This document shows, piece by piece, positions 40,478 to 58,194 of a stretch of 64,000 nt of DNA. A program made the position numbers and the translations under genes. The DNA is taken from positions 15,248,410-15,312,409 of the forward strand of contig NC_135212.1 of NCBI RefSeq assembly GCF_052324685.1, in the 5' to 3' direction. The notes under the pieces are model-generated. The model ran no database searches, was not told the DNA's origin, and was given only the letters and a program-made list of their open reading frames with translations. This DNA comes from Brachyhypopomus gauderio (taxonomy: Eukaryota > Chordata > Actinopteri > Gymnotiformes > Hypopomidae). Each line of letters opens with the position of its first letter. Within the stretch, counting starts at the first letter, position 1.

Positions 40478-43400
40478 TCAAGGTAAGGACTGTATAAGGA
40501 TAATCTTCTCATTTATGCAGAAGCGATGCAACACGCTGAGCAGGTTTTCTCCACAGCGAGACACCTGGCGTTCCATCGCCAGACGGAAATCTTCCTTCAC
40601 ACCTTTGGTGATGCCACGGGTCACAGTATGATGTCTGAAAGAGCAAAGATGTGCTTTAGTCAAGAGGACCCCTTTAAAACCCCAAGACCAGGACCATAGT
40701 GTAAAAAAAGAAAAAGATTATCGATGTCTACGATATTGACAATTAGAACAAATTAGAACAAAGTTGTTTTCTTTTCAGCAGAAAACACCATTGGACACAA
40801 TCTGAAACAAATTTGGTAACATTACCGCTCACCTTTAAATAAACACACAAACAAACGTGGAGACACACACAAACGTGGAGAACACAAACGGACATACACC
40901 CTCTGATCCTCATATCTCACAACTGCATTAAGCTAAAGTTGTGTACATTGATCATCACAGAAAACTCTACACAGATGTAACAAACCTTTGCACAGTGAAT
41001 ACTAGATACACGGACAATGATAAACAAAAGCATTTTTGCTTCAGAACAAAACATGACAAACATATGCAAATGATGCCATGTATGAAAACCAAAACTGGAC
41101 AAAAACATATACAACTGATGCATGTATGAAAACCAAAACACTTGTGAAATGAAAACTAAAGAAGACCTGAAAAAAAGAAACTAAGAAAGTATTAGGGAGG
41201 GTAGTCAGACTACAGAGGGAACGTAACGGCGTATGATCAGGCTGGGGGAGGGGCTTGGGGATGGGAGGAGCCAGGAGCGAGGTTGGTTGGATGATGGGGA
41301 TAGGGTACCTGTCAGCCTTCTGAGCCCCTGGAAGCAGCAGGGTATTTAACTCCACCCCCAGGGCGGGGCTGGGGTTCCTACGAACATCAAACACCATTTC
41401 ATCAACACCCTAAGAGCAGGGATGCATTCAAGACCTTGAGCGCACTCCGTACTGTGAGTGCACAAAGAATCCAAACATCGTACTTCAAATACCGTACTTC
41501 AAAAACTGTACTTCAAATAAACACACAGAGGTCAAATAAAAGAAATATGAAACACAACTGCACAGCTGTTTCTAAAGGTTCAATCATTTTCAAAAGCAAA
41601 ATTATAATTTATTATCTTTTATTACAAAGCATAATGACTGCTACACAAGATACGTCATGTTGATACTATAGCTCTGAATGACACTAAAAAAGAAAACTAT
41701 AGGGATTTTTAATGTAATTTAAATTATTGTTAATATAAACCCCGTAATTGGTATTAGCATTCAGAAGTTTAAGAGACCTACATAATTTGTTCCACTTCCC
41801 ATTTGTACTCGAAATACATAATTAAGAACGATGTTTAGAATGTCTTGAATGCACCCCAGGTGTGAGTTCTATAAAAGAGGTCAGAGGTCATTAGATACTA
41901 AATCTGCCAATCATGGAGCAGGTCAGAAGTCACAAGAAGCTAAGCCAGCTAAGAAACGTGGGGCAGAAAGGAAGGACGAAAGAAAGAACGAACTGTAAAA
42001 GTTTTGCTGTTCCTGTCAGAAGCATTTAAAGCAGCTACAGACGTTTTTATGTCCGAAATAAAATCAAAAGGGGAAAAAAAGGTAAAAAAAAGAAAATACT
42101 GTAAATGATCCCTTGTTCTTATTCTCAACACATCCTGTTCATCACAGCAGATGTAAAGGGGCGGACCTACTTAATCAACATCCCCTGATTAGGCAACAGT
42201 TCCAGTTGGACACGCCCCCCTTCTGTGGTACGCAGATATGCAAACTCTTCTAACATGTCAATGTCTGGGTCAGAGGTCAAGGAGACTCAAGATATAACAG
42301 CAGTCTAACAACGAGCCATGTAATCTTACATATAACACACACACCTTACATATATCGACAATAGGAGCTTGTCAAGCTGCAAAACAAAGTATGCATACAA
42401 GACCACACACACACACACCCACACACACTCACACAGACGACACACACTGCATCATCCGGAAGACAAGAGCGGATGCAGTACACAGATGAATGCAGAGGTA
42501 GATATCAAGGTGACATCCCACTGCTAAAGACTGGGGCCAACAGGTCAGGACACAGGACACGTTCAAGGATACTTGTGACGTAGTTAAAGAAGTTCTCATA
42601 CTGAAAACTCCCATGGTCACAAATCTTGTCCACTGCCTTCAGGAAGAGGGCCTCTCCCAGCGGCCAATCATGCTGCAGGAGCACGATCACATGACCCAGA
42701 GCCAGGTCATCTCTGCTACCATCTGCAAAGGCCCGCAACTGAAATAAAGATAAAGGAGCAGATTAAGATGGAGAAATATGGAGAGAGAGAGAGAGAGAGA
42801 TAAAGATGCTTCTGTTCCCATCATAAAATGTCATAGACAACTGTGTGTGACAGGTGACCCTAACATATAACCCTACATATTACCATATAACCCTACATAT
42901 TAACTGGAGACAGCTATGATCAAAACAATCAACATGGGAAGCGAAGGTAGTTTTAAAGGAGGATGATGATGATGATTTGGTGCTTTGTTTTAATTTTTTA
43001 CCAAATGGCGATTGTGTCCCATCACATCCCCCCTCCCGTCCCCTGGAGCCCTGAACACGGACATGTGCAGTGTGATGGTGTGTGGAGGTTGTGGTGGTGT
43101 TGGTGGTGGTGTTAGTGGTGGTGTTGGTGTTAGTGGTGGTGGTGTGTGGTGATTGTGGTGTTAGTGGTGGTGTGGTGTTGTGTTAGTGATGGTGGTGGTG
43201 TTGGTGTTGTTGGTGGTGGAGGTGGTGGTGTGGTGTTAGTGATGGTGGTGGTGGAGGTGGTGGTGTGGTGTTAGTGATGGTGGTGGTGATGTTAGTGGTG
43301 GTGTGGTGATGGTGGTGGGGTGGTGTTAGTGATGGTGGTGGTGTTAGTGGTAGTGTGGTGTTAGTGATGGTGTTAGTGGTAGTGTGGCAGTGGTGTTAGT

Positions 43401-44080
43401 GTGTGGTGATGGTGTGGTGGTGTTAGTGGTAGTGTGGTGGTGATGGTGTGGTGTTAGTGATGGTGGTGGTGTTAGTGGTAGTGTGGCGGTGGTGTTAGTG
43501 TGTGGTGATGGTGTGGTGGTGTTAGTGGTAGTGTGTGGTGGTGGTGTGTAGTGGTGGTGTGTGGTGATGGTGGTGGTGTTAGTGGTAGTATGGTGGTGGT
43601 GTTAGTGGTAGTATGGTGGTGGTGTTAGTGGTGGCATTAGTGTTAGTGGTGGTGTGGTGTTAGTGTTAGTGCTGGTGTGGTGTTAGTGCTGGTGTTAGTG
43701 TGGTGGTGGTTAGTGGTGGTGTGGTGTTAGTGGTGGCGTTAATGGTGGTATTAGTGGTAGTGTGACGGTGGTGTTAGTGGTGGTGTGGTGTTAGTGGTAG
43801 TGTGGTGTTGGGGTGGTGTGGTGTTAGTGGTGGTGTGTGGTGATGATAGTGGTGGTAGTGGTAGTGTGGTGTTAGTGGTAGTATGGTTGTGGTGTGGTAT
43901 TAGTGATGGTGGTGTTAGTGGTAGTGTGGTGGTGGTGTTAGTGGTGTTAATGGTAGTGTTAGTGTGTGAGACAGGTGACCCTAACATATAACCCTACATA
44001 TTAACATATAACCCTACATGTTAACTGGAGACAGCTATGATCAAAACAATCAACATGGGAAGCGAAGGTAGTTTTAAAGG

Positions 44081-44120
<40 letters not shown>

Positions 44121-47100
44121 GGTGCTTTGTTTGAATTTTTTACCAAATGGCGATTGTGTCCCATCACATCCCCCCTCCCGTCCCCTGGAGCCCTGAACAC
44201 GGACATGTGCAGTGTGATGGTGTGTGGAGGTTGTGGTGGTGTTGGTGGTGGTGTTAGTGGTGGTGGTGTGTGGTGATTGTGGTGTTAGTGGTGGTGTGGT
44301 GTTGTGTTAGTGATGGTGGTGGTGTTGGTGTTGTTGGTGGTGGAGGTGGTGGTGTGGTGTTAGTGATGGTGGTGGTGATGTTAGTGGTGGTGTGGTGATG
44401 GTGGTGGTGTGGTGTTAGTGGTGGTGTTAGTGATGGTGGTGGTGTTGGTGGTGGTGTTAGTGGTAGTGTGGTGGTGGTGTGGTGTTAGTGGTAGTGTGGC
44501 AGTGGTGTTAGTGTGTGGTGATGGTGTGGTGGTGTTAGTGGTAGTGTGGTGGTGATGGTGTGGTGTTAGTGATGGTGGTGGTGTTAGTGGTAGTGTGGCG
44601 GTGGTGTTAAGTGTGTGGTGATGGTGTGGTGGTGTTAGTGGTAGTGTGGTGGTGGTGTGTGGTGATGGTGTGTGGTGATGGTGGTGGTGTTAGTGGTAGT
44701 GTGGCGGTGGTGTTAGTGTGTGGTGATGGTGTGGTGGTGTTAGTGGTAGTGTGGTGGTGGTGTGTGGTGATGGTGTGTGGTGATGGTGGTGGTGTTAGTG
44801 GTAGTATGGTGGTGGTGTTAGTGGTGTTAATGGTAGTGTTAGTGGCATTAGTGTTAGTGGTGGTGTGGTGTTAGTGTTAGTGCTGGTGTGGTGTTAGTGC
44901 TGGTGTGGTGTTAGTGGTGGCGTTAATGGTGGTATTAGTGGTAGTGTGGCGGTGGTGTTAGTGGTGGTGTGGTGTTAGTGGTAGTGTTAGTGGTAGTGTG
45001 GTGTTGGGGTGGTGTGGTGTTAGTGGTGGTGTGTGGTGATGATAGTGGTGGTAGTGGTAGTGTGGTGTTAGTGGTGGTGTGGTGTTAGTGGTAGTATGGT
45101 TGTGGTGTGGTATTAGTGATGGTGGTGTTAGTGGTAGTGTGGTGGTGGTGTTAGTGGTGTTAATGGTAGTGTTAGTGGTGGCATTAGTGTTAGTGTTAGT
45201 GGTGGTGTGGTGTTAGTGTTAGTGCTGATGTGGTGTTAGTGTTAGTGCTGGTGTGGCGTTAGTGTTAGTGCTGGTGTGGTGTTAGTGTTAGTGCTGGTGT
45301 AGTGGTGGTGTGGTGTTAGTGGTAGTGTTAGTGGTGGTATTAGTGGTAGTGTGGCGGTGGTGTTAGTGGTAGTGGTGGCGTTAGTGGTAGTGTTAGTGGT
45401 GGTGTGGTGTCAGTGGTGGTGTTAGTGGTAGTGTGGTGGTGGTGGTGTTAGTGGTGGTGTTATTAGTGGTAATGTGGTGGTGGTGTTAGTGGTAGTGTGG
45501 TGGTGGTGTTAGTGGTGGTGTGGTGTTATTAGTGGTAGTGTGGTGGTGGTGTTAGTGGTAGTGTGGTGGTGGTGTTAGTGGTAGTGTGGTGGTGGTGTGG
45601 TGTTATTAGTGGTAGTGTGGTGGTGGTGTTAGTGGTGGTGTGGTGTTATTAGTGGTAGTGTGGTGGTGTTGTTAGTGGTAGTGTGGTGGTGGTGTTAGTG
45701 GTAGTGTGGTGTTATTAGTGGTAGTGTGGTGGTGGTGTTAGTGGTGGTGTGGGCACCTTGAAGCACGCTAGGATGAGCTGCAGACAGAAGGGCAGAACGT
45801 CTCTGCTGGTGCACGGAACTAGCCTCAGGTCGTTGCCTAGGAAATGGTAAAGAAACTCTTATAACAATGCTGATCATTAAAGACCCAGTATAGCATGTCA
45901 GAGGGGGCTGGTGTTATAAAAACTAGATTATTAGTAAAAACAAACAAACAAACAAACAAACAAACAAACAAACAGACAGACAGACAGACAGACCTTTATT
46001 GATGCCTTTGGGATTTTATTAAGAAATAAATAAATAATAAATTCATTTTTTAAAATGTCAAACTCCTCAGATCTGGATGGAATCAGACAGGGACTTCTCT
46101 CTTGTGTTCGAGCTCTAATGGACACACCTTTTCTGGATTTGCCTCGTCCACGGTTCGGTTCTTCACTGAACTTCACCGGTTCGTGATTCTGAGGCACCAG
46201 GCCACTGACGACCTCCAAGACCTTCTCACATGCAAGCTAGAAAAAAAGCACAGAAATGTGCACACATCAGGTGTTTACACACATCAGCAGGTGTTTACAC
46301 ACATTTTGGTCAACTGCTCTGGTGAACAACTAGGGCAGGGGTGCTCATTACGTCGATCGCGAAGTGTCGGTCGATCGCGAAGGAATGTGCGTAGATCGCG
46401 TCACATAAAATAGTAGTAGATGAATCGCACATCTGCTCTGACGGTTGTATTTTGATTGACATTCACGGTAGCCAATCTGCAATCCACTCAACAAATTACG
46501 TTCGCCACCCCCCCCCCCCCCCCCCCCCCCCTCAACAAATTACGTTCGCCGCCACCCCCGGTAGATCTTTCTGACTTGGTCATCTTATAAGTAGCTCGCA
46601 AGCTGAAAACTGTGAGCACCCCTGAACTAGGGCGTAGCGTTTGAAGATGCATGCTGTGTGTGTGTGTGTGTTACCCTGTGCTCCCCCAGGGCGTAGTGAC
46701 AGGATGCCTGCTGTATCACAGCTCTGTGTGTCTCCAGGTTGGCTGCTGTGAGTGACTCCGTCACTCTGCTATGACTTTGCTGGGGCAGAAGAGATGACAT
46801 CTGCACCAGACTGGAAAGAGCTGTCCTGTACTGACCCTGAAACACACGCACACGCGCACATACCGCATGCACGCGCACACACGCATGCACGCACACACAT
46901 GCGCGCACACACGCACGCACACATACACACACGCGCACGCACAAACATGCACACACGCACACACACACACACACGTGCACGCACACACATGCACACAAAC
47001 ACAGGCACACACATCCATTAACACACATGTATGCAAAGTTGTAAAACGAACTCGTTCAAATCACACACACATACCTTACTGTGTTGTCATTTTCTGATTA

Positions 47101-48154
47101 CTGGTTTAGAACTATGTGCAAAGAATAAAATATTAAATGATTCACACCTGGTATATAATATGAGATAATTCCCACCTGGTATATAATACGAGACAATTCA
47201 CACCTGGTATATAATACGAGATAATTCATACCTGGTATATAATGTGAAATAATTCACACCTGGTATATAATATGAGATCATTCAAACCTGGTATATAATA
47301 TGAAATAATTCACACATGTTATATTATATGAGATAATTCATACCTGTATATAATATGAAATAATTCACACCTGGTATATAATATGAAATAATTCACACCT
47401 GTTATATAATATGAGATAATTCATGCCTGGTATATAATATGAAATAATTCACACCTGGTATATAATATGAGTTAATTCATACCTGGTATATAATATGAGT
47501 TAATTCATACTTGGTATATAATATGAGATAATTCATACCTGGTATATAATCATGTCGGTGAGGAATATTCGGAACCACAGCCAATTCTCTGTCTTCCATG
47601 CCATGCATATCTTACTGAACTCTGCAAGAAATGAGTCTGGGTAAGCAATAACTGAAGAAATAGAAAACTTTAATGCTGCTTTGACATCATGATATGCAGA
47701 CCAGTCATCCACTGACAAAATGAAAGCAAACCCCCATTAACTCATTCTGAAGGTATTCCAATGGTGAGAAACTCAGAATTTCAGAATACCGTGAGTCCCA
47801 TTCATAAAACCTACCACCAGATGTAACGTGATGTTAACAGTAAACATCTCCACAGTAGCATGTTTCCTTATTAATGAATGTGGACTTTTGATATCGGGTA
47901 CTACCACATTTTGTCTTTATAACAGAACACACTGCCAAAACCACCACGTGAACCTGTCCGATGGTAAACGTTCCAGTAAAAAGCCCATGTGAATTACTGC
48001 TGACAAGACAAATATATAGATTGAGGAGATAAACAGTTTTGCCATCATTTAGAAGAAAAGCTGAAGTTTGAACTATCCTGTGAAAGTTACACACATTAAA
48101 TTTTTTTTTATTGGCCCTCACACACACTCACACTCACACACACATTCACAAACT

Positions 48155-48233
<79 letters not shown>

Positions 48234-49352
48234 TACCTGATTCCAGAGTGTCATGTGAATGCAGGAGGTCCCAACTCTCTCTCGCAGTGCGGAAATGTTC
48301 CAAAGTCTCTGTCCACCCCGTCATTTCGGTTTTATTCACCAGAATGTGTCTTCCTCGTCCCATCCCGAGAGCATCTTCATCATCGGAGCTCTACAAGCAC
48401 ACACACAATCGAGGTCAGAAAACCCTGGACACATTTAAATGGTCATTATCTCTTTAGGCCCAACCCTTGACCTCTGACCTGGGTAGTCCTCACCACGGTT
48501 TTCTCTCTTCCATCTGCAAGCTTGCGTTTCTTGTGTGCGTGTTTCCCACTTGATCTCTCCACCTCCACGTCGTTAAACACGCCTGACAGATCCTCCAGCA
48601 GAACCCATGGAGTTGAGCCCAGAGAGTTATGACCTGTCTCACACACACAGTTATGACCTGTCTCACACACACAGTTATGACCTGTCTCACACACAGAGTT
48701 ATGACCTGTCTTACACACAGAAATTAAGCACTGGTTCAATTCTAAAACATCTGTAACAGATACTGTTGTCCATGAGTTTAATAAGACAAGTACAAACAAG
48801 CATGTTTACGACATTCAATTTCCTGTTAACATCTGAAAAAGCTTCTGATTTACAGAATCAAACTGTGTTCTGTGCATTAAAGATTAAGACTTGAATGATG
48901 CTAGTTGAAAAGAACCAACGCCCACACACACACACACACACACGCACATGCACATGCACATGCGTGCACACACACACACGCGCACACACAAACACACACA
49001 CACCCACACACAAACATGCCCACACACACACATATGCGCGCACACACACATATGCGCACACACACACACGCGCGCGCACACACACGCACACACACACACA
49101 CACTGACCCTGAAAGAGCGAGGGCTGCACAGCGGACACATAGAGGTAGGAACAGCGGAACAGCACGAGAGTTGAGCAGGTAACAATCTGACTACAGCAGC
49201 GGCACAATGTGTCTCCCTCCAGACTGGGCAGGTAAGGACACACCTCCTTCACCCTCTGGAGGAGCTCCGTGTAGGTCCTACAGAACACACACACACAAAT
49301 TTACGTTATGGCATTTAGCAGACGCTCTTATCCAGAGCGACTTACTTACTAC

Positions 49353-49450: not shown

Positions 49451-49524
<74 letters not shown>

Positions 49525-56469: not shown

Positions 56470-58194
56470 AAGAAAGAGAAAGAGGAGGAGAGGGAGAAAA
56501 CATTGTATTAATACCCCAAAGCACTGAATACACTGGCAGAGTCAAAGTCATGAGGAAACGTGTAAATGTGAAAAGCGTCGCACCAAACAGCTTCCTGAAA
56601 CAGTTGACAGGTGTGTCCAAGTCCTCTGCAAGCTCCGCCTCCAACAGGGACTCTCCTAAACTGACCTGAAATATCAAGGGGTCACAGTTCAACATAAGGT
56701 TACTGTAAAATCACAAAGACTAAACAATGGACAGTTTGACAGATATGATACTATGAGATCATATGACACTGTGTATCGTATGATCTGCAACAAATTTGTT
56801 AATTTGTAATAGCTAATATGTAATAGGTCTTTTATCCTAAGAGGTTCCGGATGTGTGTGTGTGTGTGTGTGTGAAGGTGGTTCTCACCCCATGTTGAACT
56901 ACAGACTCTGGAAATCTCTTCAGTAACAATAGAAGCATCTCTGCTTTCTCTAGAGTGTTAAAACACTGCTCTGTAGCCTTCAACAACATCTGGCACTGAA
57001 CAGGGCCAGGAAGAGTTTCAAACACACCTGCAACATACAGACACAAACACACACAATGTTATCAACATGAAAACTGACCTCAAAGACTCTCAAACACATC
57101 CAAGCACATCTCTTTATGACATTTGCTATTGGAACCACACAAGACTCCCATGTGCACCATTAAGACACAACACCTTAATTCTGAAAAAAAAAGATCATTG
57201 CTGTGTTTTTTTTTCTTTAAGCTTAGCCACCATAGCTGCAAATGACAAGACCCTTATCAACCCTGTCAAACTCCCCCCAACTCTCTCTCCCTCTCCCTCT
57301 CCCACTCTCAAACACTTCACCTTTGAGGAACAGGGCGTGTTTGTCCTGGCTGTCATTGCGGAGTGCAGCTGTGATCACGGTGATCTCACGCCACACTACT
57401 GGCTGGTCAGGGAAATTGATGAATCTGGTGCAAAGACAGAAAGGATGCAAAATATAACAGAGTGCAAATTATGTGAAGATTATTGTGAATATTGTGAAGA
57501 TTAATTTCAAAGAATCCTCCAACAGAGCATCTTGACACCAACTCCAAACACCAAAGTGGTAGAGGACACATGTATATAAATACACGCAACTGTGAGGATT
57601 ATTCATCAGTCCCTTCACTTCTTTGTTTACGTCTTTCTAATTAGCGTTGTCATGGTGACCGGCCAGAAGAGGACGTGTCCCCCATCCGCAGGTGTTGGAG
57701 TGGTGCTGATAGTGGGACTACTCAGAGTCTCAGCGCTCTTTGAGAGGACGCGCCTACACTCACATGTCGTAGAGCAGTCTGCCGGCGGAGGCCGTCCTTT
57801 CGGCGTTACGCTCAATAATGTACATCTCATACTAGAACAGAGCAGGAGAGAAAGTGTGGAGAAAACAAACTCAAACCAACACGAAGACGGCGCGACTATG
57901 TTAAAACCAAGACGCTACAGGACATGTTAGCATGCACAAGCGACACATTTAAAGCGTGAACACGTCTGCATGTGAGCTGGGTCTGCTGGTTCTACTGGGT
58001 CTGCTGGTCTACTGGTTCTGCGGGGTCTACTGGGTTTACTGGTTCTGCTGGGTCTGTTGGTCTACCTGTATGTTGAAGTCTGTAGGGTAGAGTGTGCGCG
58101 CGGTGATCAGCCACGCTTTGGCGGCCCAGGGGTCTGCTGGCACGAGCTCGCGCGCTCTCTTCACCAAAAACTCGCAGTCGCCTTGCGCCGACAT
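40478..58194 (-). CDS. ints10: Integrator complex subunit 10, complete, 17 exons
   Basis: Subunit of Integrator, the nuclear complex that cuts snRNA 3' ends and attenuates paused RNA polymerase II. CDS exons: 58066-58194, 57764-57831, 57321-57424, 56888-57027, 56584-56665, 56228-56368, 49527-49698, 49108-49277, 48494-48633, 48237-48390, 47539-47621, 46675-46836, 46128-46236, 45757-45836, 42573-42738, 42171-42264, 40478-40634. All junctions are GT-AG with matching phase, giving 716 aa (human 710). Recognition: N-terminus [53 protein letters not shown]-terminus [17 protein letters not shown]. The exon 2/3 junction codes Ile where mammals have Met (YDM). Intron 6 (6.5 kb) is full of DNA transposons. 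Intron 14 is a 2.7-kb GGTGTTA array. Exon 9's acceptor and exon 11's donor are copied in tandem in the adjacent introns, so extra isoforms are possible. Start: first ATG after a CpG-rich, TATA-less leader. Confidence 0.97.
42843..45752. repeat. GGTGTTAGTG minisatellite with a ~1.1-kb tandem duplication (ints10 intron 14)
   Basis: About 2.7 kb of GTGGTGTTAGTGGTAGTG-type repeats. A non-repetitive leader ('agctatgatcaaaacaatca' ... 'ggagccctgaacacggacat') occurs twice, at about 42850-43075 and 43970-44215, so a block of about 1.12 kb has been duplicated head to tail. The array runs to within about 5 bases of the exon 14 donor. Confidence 0.9.
46336..46624. mobile_element. 289-bp hAT-type MITE (ints10 intron 12)
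   Basis: Termini CAGGGGTGCTCA and TGAGCACCCCTG, flanked by a perfect 8-bp duplication AACTAGGG (46328-46335 and 46625-46632). The body has several GATCGCG words and two copies of 'caacaaattacgttcgcc', the first followed by a C run of about 25. It lies 50 bp beyond the exon 12 donor. Confidence 0.9.
46845..47010. repeat. CA/CACG microsatellite
   Basis: Alternating CACACG, CACATG and CACGCA units immediately upstream (in gene orientation) of ints10 exon 12. Long apparent frames here (VCVCVC, HTHTHT) are artefacts. Confidence 0.95.
47135..47553 (-). repeat. 28-bp array copying the ints10 exon 11 donor site
   Basis: On the minus strand each unit reads ATTATATACCAG then GTATGAATTATC. The first 12 bases equal the last 12 bases of exon 11 and the rest equals the intron start. 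About 14 intronic copies follow the true junction (47538/47539); about 12 keep the CAGGT core. Confidence 0.9.
48109..48232. repeat. (CA)n microsatellite beside ints10 exon 10
   Basis: Long CA run ending 5 bp from the exon 10 boundary at 48237, so on the minus strand the intron begins GTAATG and runs at once into TG repeats. Confidence 0.95.
48624..48720 (-). repeat. 24-bp array copying the ints10 exon 9 acceptor site
   Basis: Four copies of 'gagacaggtcataactgtgt' (24-bp period) on the minus strand. Potential acceptors open exons at 48633, 48657, 48681 and 48705. The frame is open through all units. Confidence 0.9.
48924..49103. repeat. CA/CACG microsatellite in ints10 intron 8
   Basis: CA repeats with GC-rich interruptions (CGCGCG, ATGCGC), directly beside the exon 8 donor. 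Confidence 0.95.
49301..49526. repeat. dispersed repeat fragment plus duplicated exon piece and (CA)n runs
   Basis: A 'tatggcatttagcagacgct' fragment (49306-49350) is followed by CA (about 49359-49406). Then 49407-49452 carries 'ccttcaccctctggaggagc', a partial duplicate of ints10 exon 8 (compare 49247-49266). A second CA run (49453-49522) ends at the exon 7 donor. Confidence 0.85.
50582..50848 (-). mobile_element. tRNA-derived SINE (ints10 intron 6)
   Basis: Minus-strand copy with the 3' 'acaattgacaaatatggcac' end, TG run, body and tRNA-like head; a deletion has removed most of the B box region ('catgacctcaagaccagttc'). Confidence 0.8.
50860..51300. mobile_element. 441-bp non-autonomous DNA transposon with inverted ends
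   Basis: Starts TATACACTCACCGGCCACTT and ends with the near-complement AAGTGGCCAGTGAGTGTATA. The internal sequence ('ttgagatctggggattgtgg') looks like a shrunken transposase gene. Superfamily not assigned. Confidence 0.8.
51400..52800 (+). mobile_element. Tc1-like element with long inverted ends, defective
   Basis: Ends of about 200 bp are inverted copies; both hold GTGGCATGTCCA and ATTATTCATACCC words. Transposase remnants in several frames: [20 protein letters not shown] (51782-52102), [16 protein letters not shown] (52219-52515) and NTIENLW. A CAGAGT/CAGGGT repeat (52428-52475) has expanded inside the coding part. Frameshifts make it inactive. Confidence 0.85.
52880..54521 (-). mobile_element. 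Tc1-like transposon with IR/DR ends, nearly intact
   Basis: About 1.64 kb. Inverted ends of about 220 bp each contain two direct repeats: an outer 'tgctcaaaagtttacatacc' and an inner 'tgatcaaaagtttacatacc', the arrangement known from Sleeping Beauty-type elements. The left end follows TA (52878-52879). The transposase gene is on the minus strand. Confidence 0.9.
53177..54118 (-). pseudogene. Tc1-like DD34E transposase with a late frameshift
   Basis: 313 codons from an ATG in good context ([20 protein letters not shown]). The N-terminal paired-like helix-turn-helix regions ([31 protein letters not shown]) and the catalytic domain are present: [12 protein letters not shown] (first Asp), [12 protein letters not shown] (second Asp), [12 protein letters not shown] (Glu). 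Near the end the frame shifts after ELEAFC; one extra C in the TGCCCAAG run (about 53216) would explain it, since the downstream sequence still reads as transposase in the next frame up to about 53100. The loss is confined to roughly the last 35-40 residues. The family normally has about 340 residues. Whether the protein works is unknown. Confidence 0.85.
54526..54566. repeat. (CA)n microsatellite
   Basis: CA run directly beside the right end of the Tc1-like element. Confidence 0.9.
54665..56183. mobile_element. hAT-like element, 1.5 kb, decayed
   Basis: Ends AGGGTTCCCACA and the complementary GTGGGAACCCT, with an imperfect 8-bp target duplication (GGAAAGAC / GGAAAGAA). Subterminal 'ttcaaggac' and 'tttccagg' words repeat in opposite orientation at both ends. 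The interior is AT-rich with no usable frame. It ends 45 bp from ints10 exon 6. Confidence 0.7.

Follow-up and report, generated by a model that had tools for sequence, protein, structure and literature searches.

Tandem copies of the exon 11 splice donor within intron 11 of Brachyhypopomus gauderio ints10, probably a nearly neutral splice-junction mirage

Tandemly duplicated exon-intron boundaries, named "mirages", have been described from amphioxus in the Adh3 gene and in the globin genes BflGb6 and BflGb9 (PMC3087553). As outlined in that report, they involve both 5' and 3' boundaries, are unstable in length and, in Adh3, consist of units of 10-72 bp; the data summarised there suggest that regular splicing is undisturbed although many of the copies bear AG/GT, and the BflGb6 array seems to be misassembled in the draft genome (PMC3087553). 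In human ABCA7, intron 18 carries a 25-bp VNTR which starts at the exon 18 donor and ranges from 12 to about 427 copies (PMC5954066). The portions of that study drawn upon here report that use of the donor in the next unit yields a 25-nt retention isoform, amounting to about 2% of transcripts independently of VNTR length, that stop-containing isoforms increase under cycloheximide, and that skipping of exon 19 climbs with VNTR length (p = 3.24e-13), differing 3.2-fold between allele combinations of greatest and least size (PMC5954066). Variable tandem repeats with units of 30 bp on average, some of them situated at an exon-intron boundary, are likewise reported in outline from human segmental duplications, where the boundary repeats have been tied to altered splicing and to proposed new introns (PMC2812944). 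Tandem duplication of AGGT-containing sequence has also been described as a route of intron gain (PMC4974935; Rogers 1989, as cited in PMC3087553). In the literature surveyed, which was covered mostly in outline (including PMC3045353 and PMC6692358), no junction array from ints10 or from a fish was recognised.

The window analysed here is the whole stretch of 64,000 bases corresponding to C2:15248410-15312409 in the 796.5-Mb assembly, and it contains the ints10 gene on the minus strand, running from about 58.2 down to 40.5 kb. Exon-wise, at least 15 matches to the INT10-family profile were recovered among the matches listed, all of them on C2 within the window, and the gene is apparently single-copy in the assembly. 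The label "exon 11" presumes an unmapped exon 5, which is inferred because the profile matches leave a gap there. The spliced translation of exons 10 to 13 matched human INTS10 (PDB: 8rbx_j) with an E-value of 4.6e-48, and the peptide DMIIYQ/GQYRTA across the exon 11/12 junction (the slash marking the boundary here and below) aligns gap-free with the human protein, which places the end of exon 11 (..DMIIYQ) on a codon boundary, in agreement with an initial annotation of this DNA. Read on the minus strand, the exon ends ...GACATG ATTATATACCAG, with position 47539 as its last base, and the intron opens with GTATGAATTATCTCAT.

At this junction lies a 28-bp tandem array (47125-47550; 15.2 copies with 88% matches in TRF), the units of which extend from 47550 down to 47132 on the minus strand and number 15, that is, the junction unit itself and 14 intronic ones (Table 1). 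The array begins at the exon and takes in its donor, the unit spans the exon-intron boundary, and several of the head-to-tail copies on the intron side carry AG/GT signals. GT is retained in 13 of the 14 intronic copies, the exception being unit 4 with GC, and CAG/GT in 11 of them, unit 1 reading CAA/GT and unit 8 CAT/GT. Unit 11 matches the authentic site exactly from -12 to +14 (26 nt), and a 24-base junction string has two occurrences in the window. CAGGT is found 11 times in the 702-base intron, as against a mean of 0.45 (maximum 5) over 2000 mononucleotide shuffles. The exon half of the unit codes for part of a conserved protein, and the array therefore derives from the exon and not the reverse. 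The initial annotation had described an exon 11 donor copied about 14 times into its own intron, in 28-bp units that combine the last 12 exon bases with the start of the intron, and both the TRF count and the unit table bear this out; its figure of about 12 of 14 copies with CAG/GT is corrected to 11, 12 being reached only among all 15 units, with the real donor counted. It had also pointed to the stop that lies beyond the authentic donor: because intron 11 opens with GTA TGA, every later donor would append a valine codon and a premature stop, and exon 11 would grow from 98 nt to between 126 and 489 nt, depending on the intronic copy used.

Table 1. Features of the ints10 junction arrays and of exon-donor arrays found elsewhere in the assembly; positions are those of the window unless a contig is given
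Feature	Position	Strand	Basis and remarks
ints10 exon 11, 98 nt	47539..47636	-	INT10 profile match and spliced translation; acceptor CCAG, donor CAG/GTATGA
ints10 intron 11, 702 nt	46837..47538	-	Array makes up 408 nt, more than half; a TG/CG-rich tract precedes the acceptor
ints10 exon 12, 162 nt (54 codons)	46675..46836	-	Skipping would be in frame
Unit 0, authentic donor, ATTATATACCAG/GTATGAATTATCTCAT	47523..47550	-	Unit table; last 12 exon and first 16 intron bases
Copies of unit 0 within the intron (14)	47132..47522	-	TRF and unit table; period 28, one of 27 (unit 7)
Exon 9 acceptor array, 24-bp unit	48623..48718	-	TRF and unit table; 13 intron and 11 exon bases
LDL-receptor class A exon (L046)	C1:3149300-3153900	-	PF00057, 1.5e-12; 13 units of 45 bp
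Fringe exon (L047)			PF02434, 5.4e-16; 18-bp donor units
CUB exon (L066)			PF00431, 2.5e-8; short degenerate units, only the final CAG common with the exon
Discoidin-like exon (L064), probable	C2:10525200-10526300		36-bp units repeating the last 17 exon bases

That the copy number is a product of misassembly might be argued from the liability of tandem arrays to collapse or expansion, for which amphioxus BflGb6 is, in the published outline, an apparent precedent (PMC3087553). However, the units display 17 variant states among them, and neither a DNA search nor an INT10-profile search of the assembly turned up the flanks a second time. These variant states, taken together with the search results for the flanks, make the in-silico copying of a single unit unlikely, and we regard such an artefact as extremely improbable, even if the exact length of the array may be wrong.

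The sequence of the copies allows their potential for recognition to be compared with that of the real donor. In terms of duplex energy with the 5' end of U1, 11 of the 14 copies are about equal to the real donor or better and three are weaker, with one intronic copy reaching -10.3 as against -7.2 kcal/mol for the real donor. Such pairing would favour a role, raised in part by the initial annotation, in which the copies recruit U1 snRNP and thereby either sequester it or shield the intron from premature polyadenylation (telescripting). The nine U1-pairing columns, however, are not conserved: they vary as the rest of the unit does, holding 12 of the 30 non-consensus cells where 9.6 are expected for 9 of 28 columns over the 15 units, and all 28 cyclic placements of the nine-column frame give between 2 and 15 such cells. 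The closeness of the count to expectation suggests that the donors have been neither preserved nor purged, although the test is a weak one, comprising a single array of related units from one species. Selective preservation of the alternative donors was accordingly not detected in this weak within-array comparison of columns. The exon-derived ATTATATA columns form the least variable stretch, with 1 non-consensus cell in 120; this speaks against near-neutrality, but is perhaps a matter of chance following the choice of that stretch. As a dozen sites per transcript would in addition be unlikely to deplete so abundant an snRNP, the soaking up or recruitment of U1 as the role of the array appears highly improbable.

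The setting of the array within the gene was compared with that of minisatellites at large, counted at a period of at least 10 and with at least 2.5 copies. Merged into 33 arrays, these occupy 7865 of the 64000 bases of the window (12.3%); in the flanks of 15 sampled loci the corresponding figure is 6210 of 42000 bases. Two of the 30 mapped ints10 junctions fall inside arrays, as against a mean of 5.8 under rotation (P(>=obs) 0.93, corresponding to 92.5% of placements; P(<=obs) 0.15), while six of the 30 have an array on their intron side at a distance of 10 nt or less, the mean being 6.0 (P(>=obs) 0.56); these values derive from 2558 rotations along ints10, with the exon 6 acceptor one base off, and apply to a single gene chosen for having the array. 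Arrays at ints10 junctions are therefore what chance gives, and some purging of arrays from these junctions is possible. The acceptor of exon 9 has also been copied, in an array of four units, the real one included, with the form gtgtgtgagacag/GTCATAACTCT. Use of an upstream acceptor at this exon would give 8 in-frame codons per unit, stop-free when the frame is followed by eye. That an acceptor has been copied as well favours a general mutational process over a device at exon 11.

Several other repeats were observed along the gene. In the intron after exon 14 (42850-45750), a block in which CATATAACCCTACATAT accompanies a long GTG-rich minisatellite is present as a tandem pair, and the second member of the pair ends 5 bases away from the donor of exon 14. 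A CAGTAGACC-type minisatellite (57964-58065) starts at the first intron base behind exon 1, and by eye its repeat is donor-like minus one G. TG/CA-rich repeats at 48119-48232, 48923-49103 and 49452-49522 start about 5 bases from three donors, the last exon bases of which are 48237, 49108 and 49527.

Outside the gene, a DNA search of the assembly with 47100-47700 recovered, apart from its own locus, a single further place (L002, C39:1261529-1264844; 66%). The latter was rejected as a related array, as it proved by eye to be a different 28-bp array with its own junction uncopied; it occupies most of an intron, reaching the acceptor, in a host gene which by its look we take to be grainyhead-like. 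Across the genome, triples of donor-like sites at short spacing number 22328, compared with 6714 for the reversed pattern (3.3-fold), single donor-like sites 197979 compared with 95079 (2.1-fold), and triples of the stricter CAGGTAAG 1015 compared with 185 (5.5-fold). The excess over the reversed pattern is thus greater for triples than for singles; as the counts are length-weighted, scaling with array length to the extent that one C2 array supplies more than half of the listed CAGGTAAG places, and as reversing the pattern makes for an imperfect control, we draw no conclusion from this excess. Donor-like sequence may nevertheless have some extra tendency toward arrays.

A sample of 26 regions was drawn, 15 from the first listed matches to donor-like triples, with neighbouring clusters at C1:3.083 Mb merged as one region, and 11 from the listed clusters of CAGGTAAG triples. 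In the first set 10 of the 15 were scanned in one frame (L049-L053 unscanned), the piece from L054 stopping short of the donor, and in the second set 6 of the 11 (L058, L059, L061, L062 and L065 unscanned). With 16 of the 26 regions scanned, mostly in one frame, the resulting counts of exon donors are lower bounds. At least three of the 26 begin at a Pfam-supported exon donor (two of the 15 and one of the 11, respectively), and a fourth is probable. The remaining 22 gave no supported exon in these mostly single-frame scans of 16 of the 26 regions, and L056, which was taken separately from single-site matches and lies outside the 26, was set aside by eye as containing no exon array. In the LDL-receptor class A exon the frame is open through the units, and downstream donors would add 15-residue repeats. 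The Fringe and CUB exons run into a stop when read on, in both cases directly beyond the second donor and in the CUB exon after four codons; in both, the nearest decoy would cause a frameshift and not an immediate stop. The fourth exon (L064) has factor VIII as its best PDB match (E 0.0056, a weak value), with Pfam and NCBIfam searches empty even at E 10, and is probably a discoidin-domain exon by sequence resemblance; here too the frame stays open through the donor copies. Given that the frame is open in two of these four arrays, a stop is no common feature of them. Donor-array regions occur at about 1.3 per Mb over the initial 11 Mb of C1; by a rough extrapolation from this one contig end, there might be about a thousand arrays genome-wide, of which a hundred or more would perhaps lie at real donors. 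Real donors are estimated from general donor frequencies to make up about 10-20% of all CAGGTRWG sites, and with so sizeable a share, three or four of 26 regions requires no targeting.

The above observations bear on whether the ints10 array acts as a poison extension that reduces ints10 output, as the initial annotation had suggested. In a selected form of this idea, a regulated share of transcripts would be spliced from intronic donors, acquire GTA TGA and be degraded, and the length of the array would set how far ints10 output falls. Splicing from any intronic donor would indeed bring in a stop at once, with several exon junctions still to follow, and in ABCA7 the first copy is employed at about 2% and stop isoforms rise with cycloheximide (PMC5954066). 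Against this, the donor columns are without preservation, the placement of arrays in ints10 is at chance level, junction arrays elsewhere are only partly stop-producing, and the ABCA7 retention isoform is, in the same account, unaffected by VNTR length (PMC5954066). Hence, a poison extension maintained by selection is distinctly unlikely.

We consider it probable that the ints10 array is instead a nearly neutral mirage, in which the exon-proximal donor is used and the decoys leak into decay-prone mRNA; most likely it has been tolerated as a side effect of the genome's richness in repeats and is not a regulatory device. According to this scenario, a segment across the exon 11/intron 11 boundary would have been duplicated in tandem to give two donors, after which slippage or unequal exchange would have lengthened the array, with the exon half held by the conserved protein such that copying would have proceeded from the exon junction toward the intron. 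The sequence shows the anatomy of the array, its origin from the junction, the stop, the missing conservation signal among the units and the chance-level placement in ints10; the donor in use would most likely be the exon-proximal one, and the copies would be close to neutral. An occasional slip to a copy would produce the Val-stop extension and open the transcript to nonsense-mediated decay. By analogy with ABCA7 the leak would be in the range of a few per cent, and low-level decoy use combined with decay may thus occur here, the corresponding value in ABCA7 being about 2% in the part of that report considered (PMC5954066). Exon definition, through the 98-nt exon and its exonic enhancers, together with the advantage of being transcribed first, would keep the exon-proximal donor in use, and while this first donor remained in use further copies would have been tolerated and the array could have grown, as we propose. 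Because intronic unit 11 is identical over 26 nt, the exon-proximal donor would not be chosen for a better sequence of its own. The strongest point against this explanation comes from classical work on duplicated donors: in minigenes with duplicated 5' splice sites, the donor lying closest to the 3' splice site can be favoured when several bind U1 well, and such a preference would predict substantial decoy use at ints10.

An effect of array length comparable to that in ABCA7 would take a different form: a long array would weaken recognition of the next exon, and longer alleles would skip exon 12 and yield a protein shorter by 54 residues. The 162 nt of exon 12 would be lost in frame, and skipping of ABCA7 exon 19 follows VNTR length; ABCA7 alleles, however, reach several kilobases, as opposed to the approximately 0.4 kb of the ints10 array (PMC5954066). 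We regard such skipping as very unlikely at ints10.

As a device specific to ints10 the array is probably ordinary. It does, however, represent a natural experiment, with the spliceosome choosing one donor among near-identical copies spaced 28 bases apart; since the true donor recurs unchanged over 26 bases in one of them, local sequence cannot decide the choice. If many junction arrays exist, their length alleles would allow tests of exon definition, of proximity rules and of models of intron gain. A wider proposition, which we deem rather unlikely, is that mirages constitute a genome-wide class affecting perhaps a hundred donors or more and forming a hypervariable layer of splice-site choice. 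Were this so, allelic differences in array length, in ints10 as in other genes, would adjust the leak into decay, and open-frame arrays, such as the LDL-receptor class A array and the discoidin-like one, would add repeats to proteins.

The pseudo-5' splice sites of P-element IVS3 and the poison exons of AS-NMD are decoy or alternative sites which are conserved or regulated. The ints10 array has in common with them decoys able to affect output, but shows no sign of conservation or regulation. Intron gain through duplicated AGGT, as outlined in its sources (PMC4974935; PMC3087553), resembles the present case in that splice signals have been copied by tandem duplication, and differs from it in that the ints10 array lengthens an existing intron and creates none; intron 11 is presumably old relative to the array. 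The repeats of segmental duplications were, in the outline of that work, studied as differences between recent paralogues (PMC2812944), whereas ints10 is apparently single-copy. In comparison with ABCA7, the ints10 unit is of similar size and includes the exon donor, and use of the next-unit donor would likewise lead to a premature stop; the ABCA7 unit is described as GT-initial and its VNTR has a measured effect on splicing (PMC5954066), while the ints10 unit also copies 12 exon bases. The amphioxus mirages offer the closest likeness in that the ints10 array, too, consists of minisatellite-like boundary copies, many of them with AG/GT; they differ, in the published outline, in their support by RNA evidence and in the globin units of 150-160 bp (PMC3087553), the host of the ints10 array being a vertebrate gene. 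The class to which the array belongs is thus already described, with vertebrate cases in print, and the ints10 array adds a vertebrate case to it.
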